A DNA stretch of 60,058 bases from an uncultured Porphyromonadaceae bacterium (GTDB taxonomy: Bacteria > Bacteroidota > Bacteroidia > Bacteroidales > Muribaculaceae), in the NCBI GenBank assembly GCA_947175205.1, contig CAMWLS010000009.1:1-60058 (forward strand), given 5' to 3'. The notes under the pieces were generated by a model. That model saw nothing but the letters and a program-made list of their open reading frames with translations, had not been told where the DNA came from and made no database searches. The number at the start of each line of letters is the position of its first letter. Position 1 is the stretch's first letter. Shown here piece after piece: positions 1-49,480 of this stretch. The position numbers were made by a program, and so were the translations under genes.

Positions 1-199
1 CTGCTATGCCACGCCTTAAGTAGAAGGTGGTCGGATTACCTTTGTATGCAGATGTGGAATGAACAGCTCCACGCTATATGCGTGGAGACAGTTAGGCCAA
101 CTTCTTGCATACATGAGTAAGTTTCCGACGCTTCTCTACTACAAGATGATGGGCATAACGCCTCTTATTAACAATGTCATGAATTAGTGCGCACCAATT
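1..199 (-). ncRNA. Putative rod-like structured transcript, runs off left edge
   Basis: No convincing protein is seen here. The sequence folds as one nested irregular hairpin: pairs 5-10/152-157, 19-26/131-140 (with bulges), 30-35/124-129, 43-50/107-114 (perfect 8 bp) and 67-73/81-87 (perfect 7 bp). A minus-strand -7 box lies at 205-212, so a transcript would start near 199 and leave the window at position 1. It could be a free-standing RNA (a rod shape like 6S RNA) or the leader of a gene outside the window. A minus-strand frame of about 32 codons without a clear start also crosses it and cannot be ruled out. The fold is symmetric, so strand is assigned only from the promoter. Confidence 0.35.
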
Positions 200-452: not shown

Positions 453-484
453 ATTGACGGAGTAAGAAATAATTTTTACTTTTG
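453..484 (+). promoter_or_regulatory. Bacteroidetes-type promoter for the 491-861 RNA
   Basis: TACTTTTG at 477-484 fits TAnnTTTG exactly, and ATTG ending at 456 sits 20 bases upstream as the -33 element. The expected transcription start is about 491, where the structured region begins. Confidence 0.65.
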
Positions 485-490
485 CAATTG

Positions 491-861
491 CAGTCCATGC
501 TGAGAACTTATAACGTCATAAGAGGTACAGAGACCTTTTCAGACTGTTGAAGATTAGGATGGGTAGTACCGGCCATTCTTTTGGACGGCCGAAATAAATA
601 CATAAGAAGCGTTTACTTTACGCTCTTTCTTGACAATTGGAAACTTCGCAACTTTCTTAGGTTAGTCAGGACAGAAGCAGCGGTAGATGCCTTGTGAATA
701 TGTACACTCAGGTGATTATTGGCGCGAGAGCGCCAGTAACTCTTACATATACATATTCTGCGTGAGGCTTCTGCGTTGCTCGTTCAGCTAACCGGGCAAT
801 GCGAAGGCCTCCAATTGTGGAACGAGTAACAAGTATAGCTCTCACGCTTTCTTTTTCTTTT
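491..861 (+). ncRNA. Large structured RNA / long leader, unknown class
   Basis: A non-coding stretch with exceptional self-complementarity. Nested helices: 570-574/587-591, 604-612/620-631 (bulged), 633-640/811-818 (8 bp perfect), 644-649/801-806, 660-665/788-793, 672-678/767-773, 696-704/750-758 (9 bp perfect), and 716-725/730-739 capped by a GAGA (GNRA) tetraloop. Two further helices cross these: 760-766/841-847 and 775-784/821-830, giving pseudoknots or an alternative fold. Small 5' hairpins lie at 507-522 and 523-536. A pyrimidine-rich run with T tracts (848-861) follows the last helix, as in an intrinsic terminator. It starts at a good promoter and ends about 40 bases before the P-loop gene, so it is either an independent RNA or a regulatory leader of the two downstream genes. 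I do not recognise the class. Confidence 0.7.
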
Positions 862-900
862 CTAAATAATGCCATGAGGGAGTAATGGCTATGTACAGAT

Positions 901-1335
901 ATGAAAGCATCTGCTATTTACGGAGAACAGAATGCCGGCAAGTCTACGGCGTGTTTCAAACTCTATGAAATGTTGCTGAAAGCGGGTGGGAAAGTTATAA
1001 AATCACAACCTGCTGTAATATGTAATCCTTCACAACCGCCAAAAGCTGATTTTATGGTGCTTATCGCTATAAACGGCAAAACTATACTGATTACCTCAGG
1101 AGGCGATTTCGGGAGTACGGTAGCTGCAAACATTCAGCATGCCATTAGTGTGCAGCCTGACTATTTCATCTTCACCATAAGGAAAGGAACGCATTATGTG
1201 GCAGCTGTAGGGCATCTCCAAAACATAATAAACAACAACGTAAAATATATTACTCTCCACAAGGCTCAGACACAACAAGAACAAGATAATAACGAAACTC
1301 AAATAGCAATTCAAATTTTCAATCAATTATTATGA
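901..1335 (+). CDS. Small P-loop NTP-binding protein, unknown function
   Basis: A 144-residue protein with a clear Walker A motif near the N-terminus (GEQNAGKST, residues 8-16), directly after a short beta-strand (ASAIY), as in P-loop NTPases. Hydrophobic strands follow around residues 51-63 (FMVLIAINGKTIL) and 86-91 (YFIFTI); no full Walker B with two acidic residues is obvious. There is no signal peptide, so it should be cytoplasmic. The C-terminal 30 residues are Gln/Asn rich. It begins 40 bases after the structured RNA, and its stop overlaps the start of the next gene (ATGA), so the two are translationally coupled. Binding of ATP or GTP is likely from the motif; the role is unknown, and the pairing with a secreted LRR protein is unusual. 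Confidence 0.8.
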   Translation: MKASAIYGEQNAGKSTACFKLYEMLLKAGGKVIKSQPAVICNPSQPPKADFMVLIAINGKTILITSGGDFGSTVAANIQHAISVQPDYFIFTIRKGTHYVAAVGHLQNIINNNVKYITLHKAQTQQEQDNNETQIAIQIFNQLL

Positions 1336-3380
1336 AACATTATAGATTAAAGTTTCTTACGCTTAGCATTATCTTAGGCACAGTATCTGCTGTTAATGCA
1401 TTTGCCTCTGATTTCCAGTACCAGGGCTTGAATTATACCATCGTTTCTGAAAGTAGGAAGATATGCCGTCTTGATAAAGCTCCTGAAGGAGAAAAATATT
1501 CAGGTGACATCACAGTTCCCGAAACAGTAGAAAACGAAGGGAGTACATACACAGTTGAGAGTATAGAGCAGGAAGCTTTCCGCTTTAGTGCAATTACCAG
1601 TCTCATTATTAACGCAAAAATATCTGTCCTACCTAAGCGGATTTGTTACAGTTGTAATAAGTTAGAAACTATAGAGCTACCTGATGGACTTGAGGAGATT
1701 GATGAAGGGGCTTTTTATAATTGCCATAGTCTTGTTACCGTAAATCTACCACAGAGTTTAAAAATCTTAAGAAGAGAATTATTTTATGCTTGTAGGTCTT
1801 TAAAAGAGATAATTATTCCGGATGGCGCTGAAATTGTTGATGCTTATGGGGTTTGTTATGGGTGTGAATCTCTTATGTCATTTCACTTTCCCGAAAACTA
1901 CACAAGTAAAGTACTTAATTATAATGACATGTTCAATGGTTGTGCTTCTCTTACTGAAGTTACCGGGTGTGAAAATATTAGAATTAATGCAATTAGAACA
2001 TTCTCTGGTTGTAAATCACTAAATAAGATAGTAATTCCACACCTATCAAGTAATATTGAAAACGAATGTTATTCAGGTTGTATAGGTCTTGAGAACATTG
2101 ACTTCACTTCTTTTATAAAGGATATTGAAGCGCAGGCGTTTGAGTGGTGTAGCAATTTGAAATCATTGACATTTGGGGAGAATTTTAAGGGAATAGGGAA
2201 TAAAGCGTTCAACCAGTGCTTTGACATACAAACCATAACCTGCAAGAATCCGGAACCGGTAGCAATCAGTGAATCAGCTTTTACAAATACAGTTTATAAT
2301 AACGCGGTACTTATAGTTCCTTGGAGATGCGCTGATAAGTATAGGAATTGTGCCGGATGGAATCTCTTCAAGAACATTGTTGAGACAGCAGATGTTGTTG
2401 AGGCCCGTACTATTTCTTTTGCGGAGAATCAACTGGAGATGGTTGAAGGTAAAAGCTTAAAAATCGAGGCGACTATCTTACCCGCTGATGCTTCTCATTT
2501 CCGGATTGAATGGTCTGCGTCAAGCGAGATCACTATTGAGGAAGAGGAAATAAATAAAAACATTGCCTCCTGTAAGGTAACTCCTACTAAAGAAGGGACT
2601 TATGTACTCACGGTAAAATGCATAAGTGATTTAACGGATGAGGTGCTTTGCCAGAACATGTGCGTCCTGACTGTAAAAGCAAATATACTCCCTACCTCTA
2701 TGTCAGTTGAAATATCTTCAACAGAAGTAGAGGTATACCAGCCAGTAATTATCACGTGGACTATATCTCCTGAAAACTACACTGAAAAATGTTATATCAA
2801 CATTGGTGACCATTATACAGGAATTGACCCTCGTATTCGCAGACTGAGTTTCTACGCAGAACATACCGGTACATATGATGTGGGAGTGTCGCTTGTATCA
2901 GCGGAAAGCGGAGAAACGCTTTTGTATGAACCTCTTGAATTAGAAGTGGTACACGCGGGTGGCATATTTGATTGCGGAGAGGGTGTAATTAAGGTATTGG
3001 TGAATTATAATGGCATAAAAGCATCCATTAAGGCGAACGAAGGGTATACACTGCATAGCGTTATGGAAAATGGCATTGACGTGACAGCTCAATTCGCTGA
3101 TGAAGCGCTGGTTCCGGTTAAGTCCTTCCCGAACTTTAAGATTGTATTTGAGAAAAAAGAAGAAGGCGAAATCCATGAGGCTGAGAATTCCAATCTTAAA
3201 GTATTGCACCATGGCAATGTAATAGAAGTGACCGGCACAAAGGATGAAAACAGCCCGGTTACTATCTATGACGAGCAAGGAAGAGTGTTAATCCAAACTA
3301 ACAGGCATGAAATCACCCTTACTACTAAAGGTGTTCACATTCTTTTGATAGAAGGACGTACCTTTAAATTTATAAACTGA
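1332..3380 (+). CDS. Secreted BspA-like leucine-rich repeat protein
   Basis: 682 residues. An N-terminal signal peptide (MKHYRLKFLTLSIILGTVSA, then NAFA) is followed by roughly residues 60-330 of LRR_5 (BspA/Treponema pallidum type) repeats of the form CxxLxxIxLPxxLxxIxxxAFxxC, rich in cysteine. Two Ig-like beta regions follow (about 355-450 and 455-540), the first with the MVEGKSLKIEATILPADA pattern of bacterial Ig-like group 2 domains. The last 65 residues (PVTIYDEQGRVL, then a KGVHILLI segment) resemble a type A T9SS sorting tail. It is probably exported and held at the cell surface, where such proteins bind host or bacterial ligands. The start at 1332 is supported by the signal peptide and by the 4-base overlap with the P-loop gene. 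Confidence 0.85.
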   Translation: MKHYRLKFLTLSIILGTVSAVNAFASDFQYQGLNYTIVSESRKICRLDKAPEGEKYSGDITVPETVENEGSTYTVESIEQEAFRFSAITSLIINAKISVLPKRICYSCNKLETIELPDGLEEIDEGAFYNCHSLVTVNLPQSLKILRRELFYACRSLKEIIIPDGAEIVDAYGVCYGCESLMSFHFPENYTSKVLNYNDMFNGCASLTEVTGCENIRINAIRTFSGCKSLNKIVIPHLSSNIENECYSGCIGLENIDFTSFIKDIEAQAFEWCSNLKSLTFGENFKGIGNKAFNQCFDIQTITCKNPEPVAISESAFTNTVYNNAVLIVPWRCADKYRNCAGWNLFKNIVETADVVEARTISFAENQLEMVEGKSLKIEATILPADASHFRIEWSASSEITIEEEEINKNIASCKVTPTKEGTYVLTVKCISDLTDEVLCQNMCVLTVKANILPTSMSVEISSTEVEVYQPVIITWTISPENYTEKCYINIGDHYTGIDPRIRRLSFYAEHTGTYDVGVSLVSAESGETLLYEPLELEVVHAGGIFDCGEGVIKVLVNYNGIKASIKANEGYTLHSVMENGIDVTAQFADEALVPVKSFPNFKIVFEKKEEGEIHEAENSNLKVLHHGNVIEVTGTKDENSPVTIYDEQGRVLIQTNRHEITLTTKGVHILLIEGRTFKFIN

Positions 3381-3665: not shown

Positions 3666-4247
3666 TCAGTTTTCGTATCTTTCTTCCACAATTTTCCAGT
3701 CTACGATATCCCATAACTTGTTCAGGGCATCAGCACGTCGGTTCTGATAATCCAGATAATAAGCGTGCTCCCAGACATCGAATACAAGTAAGGGCTGCAG
3801 CCCGGTGGTCAGAGGTGTGCCCGCATTGGGTCCCTGAGTAATGAATAATTTACCATCCTCATCACAGGATAGCCATACCCATCCTGAACCGAAGAGGCCT
3901 ACGCCGGCATCAACAAACGCTTTCTTGAAGTCCTCGAAAGAGCCGAAGGTATCATCTATGGCCTTACGCAGTTTTCCTTCCGGCTCACGCTTGCCTTCAG
4001 GATTGAAGGTAAAGAAATAAAATATATGGTTCCATGCCTGAGAAGCGTTATTAAACAAGGCTCCAGAGCTGTGTTTTATCACCTCTTCCAAGTCCATGTC
4101 TTCAAATTCTGAACCTTGGATGAGTTTGTTCAGATTATCAATATATGCCTTTTCATGTTTGCCATAATGATATTCTACAGTTAAAGCGGATATAGCCGGC
4201 TCAAGAGCGTCTACGGCATACGGTAATTCGGGCTGTTCGTATTTCAT
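3666..4247 (-). CDS. sodB: Superoxide dismutase (Fe/Mn type)
   Basis: Converts superoxide to oxygen and hydrogen peroxide in the cytoplasm. The 193-residue length is typical. The metal ligands are all visible: His27 (EYHYGKHEKAY), His74 (AWNHIFYF), Asp157 and His161 in the signature DVWEHAYY. The GSGWVWL motif is present. In Bacteroidetes this enzyme is often able to use Fe or Mn; the sequence alone does not settle the metal here. It stands alone, convergent with the LRR gene and preceded on its own strand by the metal efflux operon, from which a terminator (4295-4329) separates it. Confidence 0.97.
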   Translation of the reverse strand: MKYEQPELPYAVDALEPAISALTVEYHYGKHEKAYIDNLNKLIQGSEFEDMDLEEVIKHSSGALFNNASQAWNHIFYFFTFNPEGKREPEGKLRKAIDDTFGSFEDFKKAFVDAGVGLFGSGWVWLSCDEDGKLFITQGPNAGTPLTTGLQPLLVFDVWEHAYYLDYQNRRADALNKLWDIVDWKIVEERYEN

Positions 4248-4294
4248 GTATTTTGTGTATTATAGGTTATCAATTGCTTCTACCAAGAAAACGC

Positions 4295-4329
4295 AAGGAG
4301 ACCCGCTTAGTTCATAAGCGAGTCTCCTT
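4295..4329 (-). terminator. Terminator of the metal efflux operon
   Basis: A strong hairpin (arms 4295-4309 and 4316-4329, one mismatch) lies between the end of the outer-membrane efflux gene and the start of sodB. Confidence 0.6.
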
Positions 4330-4360
4330 TAATATTCTTTTAATACTCTTTTTAACGCAT

Positions 4361-5569
4361 TTAACGTTTTTGGACAAGAAGCTCAAGTTTTCCAACTGTC
4401 TTGTAATAGTCAGCGCGAAGATTATTAAGAGTAAGAAGGCTCTCAAGATAATAATTAATCTCTTGCAGATATGAGACCAGGGAAATCTGTCTTCCGTTAT
4501 ATGCCTTCAATAAGGTTTGCTGGTAATTTGATTCTTCAATAGCTCTCTGATACTGGCTGATTACTGTTTTGAAGTTTTCTGCCTGAGAGTAGGTCTGTTT
4601 GATATCGCTTAAAAGTTGTGTTGTGATAGCTTGCGCCTCAATAGTGGCCTGAGACAGGTTTTCATCGGCTATACGACTCTTACCTCTGTTAGAAAATAAA
4701 GGGATAGACATGCTTGCGCTCAGGCCATTAAAGGTCTCACCCATTTCCCTGTTGAAGACATAGCCTAATTTAAGCCCGGGAATATTGTCGCGCCTGGACT
4801 GTGCTTTCTCTGCGGCTGCAACAGAAATAAGAGCTTCACCCAGGCCATTGGCAAGACTTTCCTCTACAGCTGCGGTGTATGCATCTATAGTGTAGAAGTC
4901 ACACGTGGGTAATTCCTTGACGGATGTAAGCTCATAAAGCAACGGACTCTTGGAAGTCATAAACGCCAGCGCCTCCATTGCCTGTTCTTTGTTATTTGAA
5001 GCCTGACAGATACTTATTTTCAGTTGCGCTCTCTCAAGTTTTATCTTTGAAACGTCCAGGATGGTAACGTCACGCGCTTCAAGCTGTTTTGTAAGAATCT
5101 GTTCCATCACCATGAAAGCAGAGTCCTGTTGGGAAAGGATGCTGAGTTCTGCGTTAGCTGTAATAACATCACAGCATAGATTTCTGATTTGATTTCGCAC
5201 ATCAGCGGCATTCAGGAGGTATTCCCATCTTGCTTTCCCCACACGTTTTTCTGCTGCTGCTTTACGCGCAGAATATACTCCCGGGAGTCTGAATTCCTGA
5301 CTGATGCCGGCGGTAAGTTTGTTACCGCCCACAGATTTTGATCCCCATAAATGCTCAAATTCAATTTCAGGATCTTCATAGTTTGTACTCGTACGTTCTG
5401 ATGCTTCTAAGGCCGAAAGTGAGGCTCTGTTGGCTCGTAGAGTTGTGCTGTTAAGTTCAGCTGCCTGCATCAGCCCAGATATTACCTCATCGGGAGTAGC
5501 GGCATTGCTATTGCTTGCGGCAATTATAAGTGCTGATATAAGTAAAAGAAATTTATTTATAGCTATCAT
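4361..5569 (-). CDS. TolC-family outer-membrane efflux protein (CzcC/CusC-like)
   Basis: 402 residues with a signal peptide (MIAINKFLLLISALIIAASNSNA) and two OEP-type helical repeats: long amphipathic helices around residues 30-190 and 225-400, with Ala/Gln/Glu-rich heptads. It should form the trimeric channel through which metal leaves the cell with the RND pump and adaptor encoded just upstream. It is the third gene of the operon; its start codon overlaps the stop of the RND gene by 4 bases. There is no lipobox, unlike some CusC proteins. The substrate cannot be told from this subunit. Confidence 0.88.
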   Translation of the reverse strand: MIAINKFLLLISALIIAASNSNAATPDEVISGLMQAAELNSTTLRANRASLSALEASERTSTNYEDPEIEFEHLWGSKSVGGNKLTAGISQEFRLPGVYSARKAAAEKRVGKARWEYLLNAADVRNQIRNLCCDVITANAELSILSQQDSAFMVMEQILTKQLEARDVTILDVSKIKLERAQLKISICQASNNKEQAMEALAFMTSKSPLLYELTSVKELPTCDFYTIDAYTAAVEESLANGLGEALISVAAAEKAQSRRDNIPGLKLGYVFNREMGETFNGLSASMSIPLFSNRGKSRIADENLSQATIEAQAITTQLLSDIKQTYSQAENFKTVISQYQRAIEESNYQQTLLKAYNGRQISLVSYLQEINYYLESLLTLNNLRADYYKTVGKLELLVQKR

Positions 5570-8500
5570 TTCTGTTTCTTGTTATATAGTAAATAATACA
5601 GCGCAGGCACTACGTACATGTTAAGTATGGTGGAGGAAATGAGCCCTCCTAATATTACCACAGCAAGCGGTGACTGTATCTCATTTCCGGGTTTGTCTCC
5701 TGTTATGGCCAGTGGTATGAGCGCAAGAGCTGATGTCAGGGCTGTCATAATTATAGGCAGTAAACGGTCTCGGGACCCTGTGAAAATGCGTTCCATCAGA
5801 GGCATGCCTTCAGCTTCAAGAGTATTGTAGTGGCTCATAAGTAACATGCCGTTTCTTGTTGCAATTCCAATCAATGAAATAAAACCGATTATGGCAGGAA
5901 TGTTGACCTCAGCACCAGTAAAGAACAGAATCATGATTCCACCTATCAGCGCCAGCGGCATGTTTACCAGAATTACCAGAGACTGCTTAATGTTTTTAAA
6001 CTGATGGTATAGTAACATGAAGATAATTAACAAAGCTCCCAGAGAAGCCCAGATTAAAGTGTTTGATGCTGCCGCTTCATTTTCAAACTGTCCTCCGTAA
6101 CTGATGTAATAATCTTCCGGCAGCTTAACAGATGCGTTTATCTTCTGTGCAAGTTCATTTACAGAGCCTCTTAGATCGCGTCCTTCAATATTTGCGGAGA
6201 TTATTATACGACGGTTAACATTTTCACGGCTGACAGAATTAGGGCCGGTTACGGATTTAATTTCTGCAAGTTCACTCAGTGATGCCATCCCTGTTGGTGT
6301 TGAAATTGGCATGTCCATTATGTCTGTGAGTGAATTGCGGGCTTCAGGGTAAGCCACCACTACTACGTCATAGGGCTGACCGTTTTCATACATCTGTGAA
6401 ATGGTACTTCCACTAAGCAGAGTGTTAAGTGTTTGTCTGAAGCTGCTTAATGTCAGTCCGCGGGCGGCAAGTACTTCGCGCCTGGGGATAATGGAGAGTT
6501 CCGGACGTTCCACCTGCTGTTCTATGTTTACATCCTCAATTCCTTCAATCCCTGAAGCAATCTGTTTAATCTGTTGAGCCAGTCTATATAATTCAGTCAG
6601 GTCAGAACCAAAAATCTTTATTGCCACCTGTGCCTCAGTACCTGAGAGCATTGCGTCTATGCGGTGTGAAATAGGCTGACCTATCTCAACGTTCACTCCC
6701 GGAATCTGTGAAAGACGCTGCCTTAAGTCGGTGGCCAGCTCTGCACGGCTTCTTTTGTCAAGAATGTATGGAGCTTCAATCTCTGAGGTCTGGACTCCAA
6801 GAGAGTGTTCGTCAAGTTCTGCTCTACCGGTCTTGCGTGCGACTGTTTTTATCTCTGGCATAGACATTATTATACTGTCCGCTATTGAAGCAACTTTATC
6901 ACTCTCATAGAGGGACACTCCGGGTAGGGTGGAAACATTGATGGTGAATGACCCCTCATTAAATCTGGGAAGGAAAGACCTGCCCAGAGAGCTGAACAAT
7001 ATGCACGCTATGATGAACAGAGCACCGGTAACTATCAGGAGTGTGGTCTTATGTTGCATAACCCGTTCCAGAGAGTGTATATATCCTTTCTGGAGTATGC
7101 GGCTGGTCCATGGTAATTTTGATTCATGAGATGATTCATCTCCCTTATTGAGTAGGAAAGAAGATAGAACAGGAGTAAGGGTGAGCGCCACCAGGGTGGA
7201 CGCTGCCAGCGCTACTATGAAGGCTACTCCCAGAGGGATAAGTAACCGTCCTTCAAACCCGCTGAGGAAGAAGAGAGGTAAGAATCCGGCCGTTATAATA
7301 AGAGTGGAATTGAAGATGGGCATTCTGACTTCCGCTGAGGCGCTGAATACCACATCTCTGACGCTCTGACGCTCAGACTCGGGAAGTTTCCTGTTAAGCC
7401 TTAGACGTCTGTATACATTTTCAACATCCACTATGGCATCATCCACAAGAGAACCTATTGCAATGGCAATACCGCCCAGGGACATGGTGTTGATGGTAAA
7501 GCCGAGTGCATGGAGGATTATGATGGTGATGATTATTGACAGCGGGAGCGCAATTACTGAAACTGCTGTGGCTCGGATATTCATCATGAATATGAAGAGT
7601 ATCAGAATCACAAAAATTGCTCCCTCAAATAAGGCCTCACCCAGGTTACTGATGGAGTTGTCTATAAAATCAGCCTGACGGAAAATGTCTGTGTTGATTA
7701 CAAGACTGCCGGGGAGAGAATGTTTTTCGCTTTCAAGAGTGTGCATTATCTCCTCAGTCAGTTTTATGGTTGAGGCGTGGGGTTGCTTGGTAATGGTCAT
7801 GAGCACGGCTGGACTTCCGTTTAAAGCGGCGAGCCCTAACTGGGGCTGTGCACCGGCAATAGTAACCGTAGCCACATCCTCCACTCTGACCATTCCGTTA
7901 TCATCATTTTTTATTAAGGCTGTGGATATATCCTCAGTGTTGCGTGATGAGAACTGACCGCGAATAAGATATTCATTGCCATAATCATACACTACACCTC
8001 CCGTGACGTTATTATTTATGTTATCCAGTGCCTCCAGGACTTCGTTTACGCTCACATTCCTCTGCTTCATCAAGTCAGGATGAAGCTGAATTTGCATTTC
8101 TTTCCTCTCACCGCCAATGACGCTAATGGCAGAGACTCCGTTCAGAGCCAGCAGACGAGGTTTCAGAATACGCTCAGCAATATCGCGGATTTCCATTAAA
8201 GGAATGCTGTCAGATTGCAGACCAATTATCATCATTTCCCCAAGAATGGAACTCTGTGGGCCTAAAACAGGTGCTTCAACGCCGGCCGGCATATTCTCAC
8301 TTACAGAACTTAGACGCTCACTTACTATCTGGCGGGCCTGCAATATCTCTGTATCCCAGTCAAACTCAATCCATACTGTGGAGAATCCGGCAGTTGATGT
8401 GGAACGTACACGTCTTACTCCGGTGGAGCCGTTCACAGCAGTCTCAATGGGGTATGTAACAGTAGTTTCAACTTCCTGTGCTGTCATTCCCGGAGCCTCT

Positions 8501-8652
8501 GTCATTACCACCACAGTGGGAGCATTAAGGTCAGGGAAGATATCCACATCTGAGCGTAATGTGATAATCATTCCACAGAACAGAATTACGGCACTTAAAA
8601 TAAGAACCGTAATGCGGTTATCAAGGCTGAACTTTATGATTCTATTAAGCAT
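5566..8652 (-). CDS. Heavy-metal efflux RND pump (CzcA/CusA family)
   Basis: 1028 residues, the expected size for an HME-RND inner-membrane proton antiporter: N-terminal membrane helix, two large periplasmic loops (about residues 35-330 and 555-850) and helix bundles (about 335-530 and 860-1020). The helix-4 segment GSLVDDAIVDVENVYRRLR carries the acidic residues of the proton relay, as in CzcA/CusA proteins. It pumps metal cations (Co, Zn, Cd, Cu or Ag) with the adaptor upstream and channel downstream. The gap to the adaptor gene is 6 bases. Which metal is moved is not clear from the sequence. Confidence 0.92.
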   Translation of the reverse strand: MLNRIIKFSLDNRITVLILSAVILFCGMIITLRSDVDIFPDLNAPTVVVMTEAPGMTAQEVETTVTYPIETAVNGSTGVRRVRSTSTAGFSTVWIEFDWDTEILQARQIVSERLSSVSENMPAGVEAPVLGPQSSILGEMMIIGLQSDSIPLMEIRDIAERILKPRLLALNGVSAISVIGGERKEMQIQLHPDLMKQRNVSVNEVLEALDNINNNVTGGVVYDYGNEYLIRGQFSSRNTEDISTALIKNDDNGMVRVEDVATVTIAGAQPQLGLAALNGSPAVLMTITKQPHASTIKLTEEIMHTLESEKHSLPGSLVINTDIFRQADFIDNSISNLGEALFEGAIFVILILFIFMMNIRATAVSVIALPLSIIITIIILHALGFTINTMSLGGIAIAIGSLVDDAIVDVENVYRRLRLNRKLPESERQSVRDVVFSASAEVRMPIFNSTLIITAGFLPLFFLSGFEGRLLIPLGVAFIVALAASTLVALTLTPVLSSFLLNKGDESSHESKLPWTSRILQKGYIHSLERVMQHKTTLLIVTGALFIIACILFSSLGRSFLPRFNEGSFTINVSTLPGVSLYESDKVASIADSIIMSMPEIKTVARKTGRAELDEHSLGVQTSEIEAPYILDKRSRAELATDLRQRLSQIPGVNVEIGQPISHRIDAMLSGTEAQVAIKIFGSDLTELYRLAQQIKQIASGIEGIEDVNIEQQVERPELSIIPRREVLAARGLTLSSFRQTLNTLLSGSTISQMYENGQPYDVVVVAYPEARNSLTDIMDMPISTPTGMASLSELAEIKSVTGPNSVSRENVNRRIIISANIEGRDLRGSVNELAQKINASVKLPEDYYISYGGQFENEAAASNTLIWASLGALLIIFMLLYHQFKNIKQSLVILVNMPLALIGGIMILFFTGAEVNIPAIIGFISLIGIATRNGMLLMSHYNTLEAEGMPLMERIFTGSRDRLLPIIMTALTSALALIPLAITGDKPGNEIQSPLAVVILGGLISSTILNMYVVPALYYLLYNKKQK

Positions 8653-8658
8653 ATATTC

Positions 8659-9858
8659 TTAATGATGATGTGAGTGACCTTCCGGTATTGCACCGGATGC
8701 TTCTGCCAGACGCACGGTTATTGCCCCTTCTGTGACAATATCATCTCCGGGTGTAATACCGGTTGATATTGTAGCTTTTTTGCCATCTGATGACGCCACA
8801 GTAACAGGGAGTTTCTGATAGCAATCTTCATCCAGACGTTTGTAAACAAAGAAGTTACCTTGCTGTTCTATAAGGGCCGTTACCGGTACTGATATGCCCT
8901 TTGATATGTTATCTGTCAGCAGATAAACAGTAGTGGCCATTCCTGAGGTGAGACCCTGGGCAGAGGATGCGGGAAGTGACAGCCAAACGGGAATATATCC
9001 GCTTGTACCGGGGTTAGAGACAGATGTATTGGATGCAAGTATGGTGCCACCGTTCTCTTTAAGGTTAATAATATTTTCAGAATAAGGAATACAGATATTT
9101 GCATCTGTGATACCTGAGACGGCTGATGCATATTTAGCGGATAAATCAACCTTTACTGTAAGTGCTCCAGTTGAGGCTATATCACCTACTATATCTCCGG
9201 CATTTACAAAAGACCCCGATGATATATTAAGATTTGTAATCACGCCCCCTTTGACGGCTCTTACTGTGTTTCCGGCTGATGGACTGTATGAAGCCTGGGC
9301 CTGGGCGAGAGCTGCCACTGCAGCGTTATATTCTGATGCAGTAACCAGTTTCTCCTCATATAAAGGCTTGAGCCTTTCCACCTCTTTTCTGGCTGCCTCC
9401 AGAGCAGCTTTGGCTGCTTGGTTTGAGTTACCGCCACTGACAGCTGATGTGTTTATTGTGGCTATGGCCTGTCCGGCCTTTACTTGCGTGCCTACTGTGA
9501 TTCCTTTAGATAAAGTAATGACGCCTGATGTAGGAGCTACCATTGCTGACGCATTGTCTGCTGAAGATGTTATCATGGCTGAAGCTTTAATTGTCCGGCT
9601 GATGTTGTCTTCTGTAATTACTGTGGTCTTTACTCCCATACGTTCCGCCATCTCAGGTTCAAGTGTTATTACTCCGGCAGCCTCATGTTCTGATTCATGG
9701 TCGTGGTCGTGTTCATGTTCATGACCATGAGTATGCTCTGCCTCATGGTCATGGTTGTGTGCGCTCTCATCATGATCTGATGAATGGGTACTACAGGCGT
9801 TGAGACCAAGTAGCCATAGACATGCGGCTGTGACTGTAAATATGTTTCTTATCTTCAT
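8659..9858 (-). CDS. RND adaptor lipoprotein with His-rich N-terminus (CzcB/CusB-like)
   Basis: 399 residues, first gene of the efflux operon. A lipoprotein signal ends in LNAC with Cys22 as the lipidated residue. Residues about 24-60 are extremely rich in His, Asp and Glu (a dozen or so His, in HxH and HDHDH patterns), and the C-terminus ends HSHHH. The rest is a membrane-fusion protein: lipoyl-like halves around residues 95-130 and 200-225, a short helical hairpin between them, and a beta-barrel after 230. The His-rich parts probably bind metal in the periplasm and suggest zinc, cobalt, nickel or copper handling rather than drug efflux. Confidence 0.9.
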   Translation of the reverse strand: MKIRNIFTVTAACLWLLGLNACSTHSSDHDESAHNHDHEAEHTHGHEHEHDHDHESEHEAAGVITLEPEMAERMGVKTTVITEDNISRTIKASAMITSSADNASAMVAPTSGVITLSKGITVGTQVKAGQAIATINTSAVSGGNSNQAAKAALEAARKEVERLKPLYEEKLVTASEYNAAVAALAQAQASYSPSAGNTVRAVKGGVITNLNISSGSFVNAGDIVGDIASTGALTVKVDLSAKYASAVSGITDANICIPYSENIINLKENGGTILASNTSVSNPGTSGYIPVWLSLPASSAQGLTSGMATTVYLLTDNISKGISVPVTALIEQQGNFFVYKRLDEDCYQKLPVTVASSDGKKATISTGITPGDDIVTEGAITVRLAEASGAIPEGHSHHH

Positions 9859-49089: not shown

Positions 49090-49480
49090 GAGACAGCTGG
49101 CCTGATTTAGATTGCTTGTAAGCCGGGTTATGTTCCGGGGAAAGCCCCGGAATCCGTCATTTATCTATGTGTATTGTCACCAACACACTAAAGCAGTCTA
49201 CCCCTCGGCAAGAAGCGAGCAGCCTCATGCGCCGATATACTTGACCTTGCAACCCATAGGTAGTGCGGCAGCATATGTCACCATATGCTCCGGTGAGCTC
49301 TTACCTCACCTTTTCACCCTTACCACATGCGTGGCGGTTTTTCTCTGTCACCTTAACCTTACCGTTTCCGATAACTTCCGGTTAGGAAATATAGTGCTCT
49401 GTGTTGCCCGGACTTTCCTCTTGCCTCTTAAGTCTTAAAACTGAGACAAGCGACGGATCCACATTCATTTCAGGCCAGCT
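49090..49480 (-). ncRNA. rnpB: RNase P RNA
   Basis: Catalytic RNA that trims tRNA 5' ends. On the minus strand the conserved P4-region sequence GAGGAAAGTCCGGGCAAC is present near the 5' part (around 49422-49405), together with the later AGACTGCTTTAG-like region and the 3' CCGGCTTACAAG. The first and last bases form a perfect 11-bp P1 helix (49470-49480 with 49094-49104), which fixes the ends; a T run follows the 3' arm as terminator. About 385 nt, bacterial A type. It lies 27 bases downstream of lpxA. Confidence 0.95.

Follow-up and report, generated by a model that had tools for sequence, protein, structure and literature searches.

Among described systems, the structured cis-regulatory leaders (for example, the c-di-GMP riboswitches), the processive antitermination RNAs put and EAR, the JUMPstart/ops leaders, which stand before mixed or accessory gene sets, and 6S RNA, a free RNA that forms a long rod with internal loops, come closest to the element reported here. 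To our knowledge, few leader RNAs that are both large and conserved occur in many copies per genome. In the accessible part of PMC2864571, the Bacteroidota RNA motifs Flavo-1 (RF01705) and Bacteroidales-1 (RF01693) are tabulated without known function.

Here, we describe an element at positions 491 to 861 (plus strand) of a 60,058-nucleotide stretch of DNA, hereafter the window (contig CAMWLS010000009.1 of assembly GCA_947175205.1, from an uncultured Porphyromonadaceae bacterium). Judging from its sequence and that of its relatives, we regard the element as probably the 5′ leader of a P-loop/LRR operon and a member of a new, phylum-wide and signal-responsive family of cis-regulatory RNAs.

The element resembles riboswitches and other structured leaders in its 5′ leader position, its own promoter motif, its covarying fold with loop-loop pairing and its many copies per genome before varied, often surface-related genes, but it differs from them in having no Rfam match, no known ligand, a large core (~250 nt in the window's genus) and restriction and BREX targets. 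Like the put/EAR RNAs and JUMPstart/ops leaders, it is a leader RNA close to a promoter with mixed or accessory gene sets, although it is larger and has no Rfam match. The long rod with internal loops recalls 6S RNA and 6S-Flavo (RF01685), whereas the multiple copies, the leader position and the lack of a match to the Rfam model do not. From Flavo-1, Bacteroidales-1 and the other catalogued Bacteroidota motifs it is set apart by the failure of their Rfam models to match the scanned copies. The literature searched, including the accessible parts of PMC8040213, PMC2864571, PMC9723704 and PMC7160235 (the supplements of PMC8040213 lay outside the search), held no recognizable description of the element. 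As far as its accessible part goes, PMC8040213 reports thousands of candidate RNAs, some in Bacteroidetes, and unnamed fragments of the element may be among them. We judge this widespread RNA family to be new and uncatalogued in Rfam 15.

The element in the window

A sequence-only reading of the window had proposed a large structured RNA at this place, of an unknown class, ahead of a P-loop/LRR gene pair. The proposal was borne out by a folding energy far below that of shuffled sequence (491 to 861, −133.3 kcal/mol; mean of 100 shuffles, −97.1; sd, 5.6; z, −6.46; none as good), by abundant homologues with covarying helices and by a P-loop open reading frame (ORF) and an LRR_5 ORF directly downstream. 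The longer segment 491 to 900 folded with a z of −6.72, and the minus strand of 491 to 861 likewise beat chance (z, −4.89), as is expected of a long rod. Scanned over the whole window, Rfam 15 gave no match at gathering score at the element. With E values up to 10 allowed, positions 380 to 920 gave four sub-threshold matches (best E, 0.066, a 20-nt HIV-1 hairpin), which were judged to be chance, and 30 homologue loci scanned with E up to 0.1 gave only tRNA, Flavo-1 and one sub-threshold match, all off the element.

Protein coding, named beforehand as an outcome that would count against the RNA, was not seen: no plus-strand ORF of at least 40 amino acids (aa) was listed across 491 to 861. A coding reading was rejected on this ground and on the strand-specific G-U pairs described below; one 55-aa ORF lies on the minus strand (708 to 875). 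A tmRNA was also considered and rejected, as ARAGORN found none in the window.

Several structural details of the sequence-only reading were recovered in part or in full (Table 1). Its 14-bp composite closing helix (633 to 649 with 801 to 818) is paired, as the two helices P2 and P3, but is not the closing helix of the element, which is P1. The GNRA-capped hairpin (GGCGC-GAGA-GCGCC) is present, within the part that is most variable among homologues. Crossing helices are present as well, since P3 crosses the small hairpins HP1 and HP2 and the strand before the 3′ side of P1 can pair beyond the T-rich tract. A TAnnTTTG promoter had been placed just upstream, and the motif and its TTG fit a start near 491. 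The T-rich tract is found where the element was thought to end, directly after P1, but conserved structure extends past 861, to ~889.

Table 1. Promoter, RNA parts and genes at the element (window positions)
Feature	Position	Strand	Basis or remark
Promoter	454–484	+	TTG 454–456 and TACTTTTG 477–484, TAnnTTTG type
5′ domain of leader	491–604	+	Own-copy complementarity in relatives
Conserved core	605–851	+	Covariation; match to model R2
P1	607–612/844–849	+	Conserved core, closing helix
P1b	622–625/824–827 and 628–630/819–821	+	Conserved core
P2	633–639/812–818	+	Conserved core, strong covariation
HP1	640–643/653–656	+	Conserved core
P3 (loop-loop)	644–650/800–806	+	Conserved core, strong covariation
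P4	660–666/787–793	+	Register permitted by the window's own bases
P5	677–680/776–779	+	Conserved core
P6	683–687/770–774 and 689–691/766–768	+	Conserved core
Variable tip, including GNRA-capped hairpin 721–734	692–765	+	Sequence; poorly conserved in alignment A1
HP2	795–797/807–809	+	Conserved core
3′ module	839–889	+	Own-copy complementarity; T-rich tract 848–863 in between
P-loop-like gene, 144 aa, first of operon	901–1335	+	ORF list, Pfam
LRR_5 (BspA type) gene, 682 aa, second of operon	1332–3380	+	ORF list, Pfam

Homologues and conserved fold

A blastn search with the element gave matches in 32 of 61 genomes (its own included), frequently several per genome. Eighty of 115 further blastn places were fetched with flanks, 71 of 81 oriented loci were kept (score of at least 130, near full length) and 38 of the 71 were chosen by identity and aligned with MAFFT (alignment A1). 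In most of the copies in an alignment of 22, the promoter, 5′ domain, core and 3′ element followed one another in the same order.

A covariance model of the core (R1), built from 38 of the 71 good copies, matched 38 of 41 genomes of the window's genus, with 0 to 17 copies each; the window's own genome holds at least nine copies by R1, and a second model (R2) adds one. In a class-wide sample, R1 matched 14 of 296 genomes, and in seven of these the only match spanned 154 to 175 nt; the compact form of the element measures ~155 to 220 nt. R2 was built from sixteen distant R1 matches in families other than that of the window. It matched at least 75 of the 296 sampled Bacteroidia genomes (49 of 166 genera), though no Rfam 15 model matches the element, and at least 31 of 247 genomes of the phylum, including eight from outside the class that scored less well (E, 1e-5 to 8e-9); these genome counts are lower bounds, because 9 or 11 candidates per genome were scored. 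The window copy was recovered at 54.3 bits. None of 11 control genomes outside the phylum matched R2, and one of three further Bacteroidota genomes run beside that control did. The two models are not independent, because R2 was trained on sequences that R1 had found.

A pattern scan of named genomes gave at least 114 stretches, of which 79 were tested; 64 matched R1 at an E value of 7e-8 or better and one matched weakly (E, 9e-4), among loci that were preselected, since the scan pattern is part of the R1 model. The 14 misses comprised 11 stretches labelled as other phyla (e.g., Pseudomonas and Streptomyces) and three labelled as Bacteroidota. Three confirmed loci lay in bins labelled Firmicutes, Lachnospiraceae and Erysipelotrichaceae, labels that we take for binning errors. 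Named culturable carriers were Paraprevotella xylaniphila YIT 11841 (12 copies), Segatella copri iAQ1173 (10 copies) and Prevotella sp. P5-50 (5 copies). The element was also present on three IMG/VR contigs, and blastn of window positions 470 to 900 against phage and plasmid collections gave no match.

A second, diverged member, cut by the contig start, is probable at window positions 1 to 165 (minus strand; R1, 17.7 bits, E 0.0048; R2, 19.8 bits, E 0.0054; fold z, −7.0); the sequence downstream of it falls beyond the end of the contig. Elsewhere in the same genome (contig C51), a partial second copy (locus L039, 3760 to 3927) closely precedes a full one, both on the same strand. One IMG/VR contig holds a short G+C-rich match to R2 only (L334, 7425 to 7555, plus strand; 34.8 bits), with the next gene opposite in direction, and a Flavo-1 RNA (RF01705; L286, 1049 to 1124, plus strand) lies ~380 nt upstream of a compact copy.

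Core length was near-constant (230 to 261 nt in 71 copies), internal loops were strongly conserved in A1 and RNAalifold run on the homologues gave a rod-shaped fold. A1 was not fitted to the hand-written structure (P1, P1b, P2, HP1, P4 to P6, HP2 and the crossing P3), the pairs of P5, P6, HP1 and HP2 having been picked after inspection of A1. Over 54 pairs, 93.4% of 2,027 cells were paired versus 33.7 to 45.9% with the partners slid, and the covariation score was 0.447 versus 0.067 to 0.104; because the structure was derived from the A1 sequences, the slid control flatters these values, and the 281 cells changed on both sides of a pair are the stronger point. None of 500 shuffles equalled the observed result on any of five measures. 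A lack of covariation, which the sequence-only reading had set beforehand as an outcome speaking against it, thus did not occur in the homologue alignment.

In a compact alignment (A3), fitted to a model that already included P2 and the larger part of P3, all 37 sequences formed five of the six P3 pairs, with two to four pair types each. One HP2 pair outside the model was UA in 18 sequences and CG in 10; the remaining HP2 and HP1 pairs were less regular and competed with model pairs, so P3 may represent contact between two loops or, instead, one stretch of an uninterrupted rod. The weakest of the helices is HP1, whose first pairs compete with the end of P2, and the automatic R2 structure pairs three HP2 columns elsewhere. 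In helix cells, G-U stood far above A-C (214 versus 42; compact set, 12 versus 4), which, as far as comparison of sequences can tell, shows that the plus-strand RNA fold is under selection.

Flanking motifs and downstream genes

TAnnTTTG, which we take to be the promoter type of Bacteroidota, was found within 140 nt upstream of 68 of the 71 cores (shuffled mean, 4.5; maximum, 12) and upstream of 27 of 33 compact cores (shuffled mean, 2.9; maximum, 8). A TTG stood 16 to 26 nt further up in 55 of 72 such sites, whereas in the compact set it did so at only 10 of 30. The 5′ domain, ~114 nt long in the window versus ~60 nt in the usual copy, contains one helix in relatives, which is of the GACCG/CGGTC type in some and gives way to ATATCG/CGATAT in others. 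Its own-copy complementarity was 12.10 versus 10.48 when shuffled (sd, 0.30; 0 of 500 as high), as measured in those aligned copies whose start could be read (46 of 60), a set that did not include the 5′ domain of the window itself.

Runs of at least four T followed P1 in 67 of 71 copies and 30 of 36 compact copies, compared with A runs in 1 of 71 and 0 of 36. Bases before the 3′ strand of P1 paired with a segment 12 to 75 nt further on in their own copy better than with the segment of other copies (71 copies, 14.77 versus 12.35 shuffled, sd 0.26; 36 of the 37 compact copies, 14.01 versus 12.01, sd 0.35; 0 of 300 as high in each), and conserved structure therefore runs past the T-tract. In the window, CTCTC (839 to 843) is able to pair with GAGGG (876 to 880), giving 5 bp including one U-G. 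GAGGG sits in the loop of a hairpin (871 to 875 with 885 to 889), also present in the predicted fold of 491 to 900 and shortly followed by the ATG at 901. P1 and the 3′ pairing are compatible and can form together; a clear mutually exclusive alternative was not found.

The two ORFs behind the window copy overlap by 4 bases. The best Pfam match of the P-loop-like protein was nSTAND3 (E, 0.0025, below the cut-off), and it had two relatives besides itself; the LRR protein matched LRR_5 at E 1.1e-41 and, by eye, has a signal-peptide-like N terminus. The P-loop gene was rejected as a constant partner, tblastn having found no other copy in 81 loci; another small P-loop-like ORF does stand before an LRR gene behind copy L094, but the resemblance is weak (E, 0.024).

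The first downstream gene (at least 110 aa) was co-directional with the element in 70 of 77 copies, with upstream neighbours 39 plus and 36 minus, and in 108 of 113 cases in a further set. This comprised 119 loci, with at least two sites present in duplicate (L116/L293 and L127/L295), and its upstream neighbours were 66 plus and 36 minus. The exceptions were 7 of 77 and 5 of 113. Thirty of the 77 first genes start 25 to 55 nt past the estimated core end, and distances above 200 nt are also frequent in that set. The position of the element is shared between related genes of different genomes (e.g., L035/L037 and L061/L077).

By a simple hydrophobicity test of our own, 45 of 67 first downstream genes of the genus set looked exported versus 4 of 37 upstream neighbours (Fisher P = 1.5e-8), rising to 53 of 67 when the first or second gene was counted; BspA-type LRR proteins make up the main part of this enrichment. 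In the compact set, the test was applied to the longest ORF that began within 420 nt, and 14 of 29 such genes looked exported; on this count, and given the DNA methyltransferases among the targets, the idea that all targets are exported was dropped. Pfam families among 83 downstream proteins of the first set (A4; of 115 listed) included 19 LRR_5, 2 TerB, one HaeIII-type nuclease and one cytosine methylase, and among 133 of the wider set (A5; of 177 listed) 7 LRR_5, 4 TonB plug, 4 type III methyltransferase models and 3 BrxP (one site counted twice). No shared downstream pathway that would name a ligand was seen in the top 25 families of each list (LRR, TonB receptors, methyltransferases, BrxP, TerB and others). 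The other eight copies of the window's own genome stand before a further P-loop/LRR pair and before genes that, on inspection by eye, encode exported or lipoprotein-like proteins, a Sel1-repeat protein, a type III methyltransferase-like protein and, at a distance of 396 nt, a glycosyltransferase.

Two near-identical lipoprotein-like N termini occur in that genome, each behind its own diverged RNA copy (L232 on contig C4 and L233 on contig C2). On IMG/VR contigs, the RNA lies ahead of a BrxP (BREX) operon (L324) and, by eye, ahead of an operon with a translation-factor-like GTPase first and an Hsp70-like protein (L323).

Readings of the element

Comparison of the copies showed a conserved promoter motif, selection on the plus-strand fold, a co-directional leader position, a T-tract after P1 and pairing near the start codon, all of them properties of sequence. 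Its apparent 5′ position before a co-directional gene, with a promoter of its own, and its covarying conserved fold are those of a leader, and a cis-acting leader is what we consider it very probably to be. It looks like the leader of the operon rather than a free RNA of ~370 nt. A free-standing small RNA of that length, ending at the T-tract and acting in trans beside a gene that is a mere neighbour, would account for the T-rich end and for the resemblance of P1 and the tract to an intrinsic terminator, but own-copy pairing continues beyond the tract, which makes this reading less likely, and neither the shared direction of the first genes nor the start of many of them so soon after the core agrees with it; we hold it to be improbable. 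More improbable still is a DNA-level feature, a mobile hairpin (MITE or attC-like) inserting before genes. Many dispersed copies per genome, a rod-shaped and partly palindromic form and presence on the three IMG/VR contigs would suit such an element, yet the excess of G-U over A-C is strand specific and thus argues for a plus-strand RNA, the promoter motif and gene orientation are conserved, the phage and plasmid collections gave no match and related genes in different genomes carry the element in the same place.

As the downstream genes have no pathway in common, the main rival is a constitutive leader without sensing, which would aid the expression of accessory genes either as a put/EAR-like processive antitermination RNA or by acting on translation or stability. 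Promoter-motif distance is similar in most copies, and unrelated targets, restriction and BREX operons among them, are easier to reconcile with a general-purpose element than with a metabolite switch. The strongly conserved internal loops and the complex fold, however, seem beyond the needs of such elements, and a T-tract so regularly placed directly after P1 looks regulatory; we consider the constitutive reading rather unlikely. Conditional regulation by a ligand or protein is what we lean towards, if only slightly. That the family forms a new riboswitch-like class reading one cellular signal, be it an alarmone, a second messenger or a cue from the envelope or from infection, and jointly setting surface-protein, lipoprotein and anti-phage operons is a tentative and somewhat doubtful extension.

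Under the favoured reading of a signal-responsive leader, the core would act as the sensor. In one state, P1 directly followed by the T-tract would favour a transcription stop, and/or the 3′ pairing would keep the start region shut. Expression of the downstream gene would follow once a signal or a bound protein shifted the balance. In this way, a single signal might govern surface proteins, lipoproteins and some defence operons through the dispersed copies. Counted against this are the mixed downstream genes, which suggest no ligand, the window's 3′ pairing of only 5 bp with one U-G, the ability of P1 and the 3′ pairing to form together, the share of exported-looking genes in the compact set and the genes that are distant or not co-directional. 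The element is not filed as a riboswitch, because no clearly exclusive switch was found among its pairings and any ligand is putative.

The phylum that carries the element includes many gut bacteria, and its targets are often surface proteins and sometimes anti-virus proteins. If it is a true switch, it would offer a way into the control of surface proteins and some defence operons in gut Bacteroidota. Even with the ligand left aside, annotation can be extended to the family, and the many natural copies form a mutational series for structure work.

Elsewhere in the window, the Rfam scan gave RNase P RNA only (class A; 49103 to 49469, minus strand; 231.9 bits). Positions 3666 to 9858 (minus strand) hold what we take, by eye, to be a superoxide dismutase-like ORF and an efflux set, presumably consisting of an outer-membrane factor, an RND pump and a membrane fusion protein with a His-rich N terminus.
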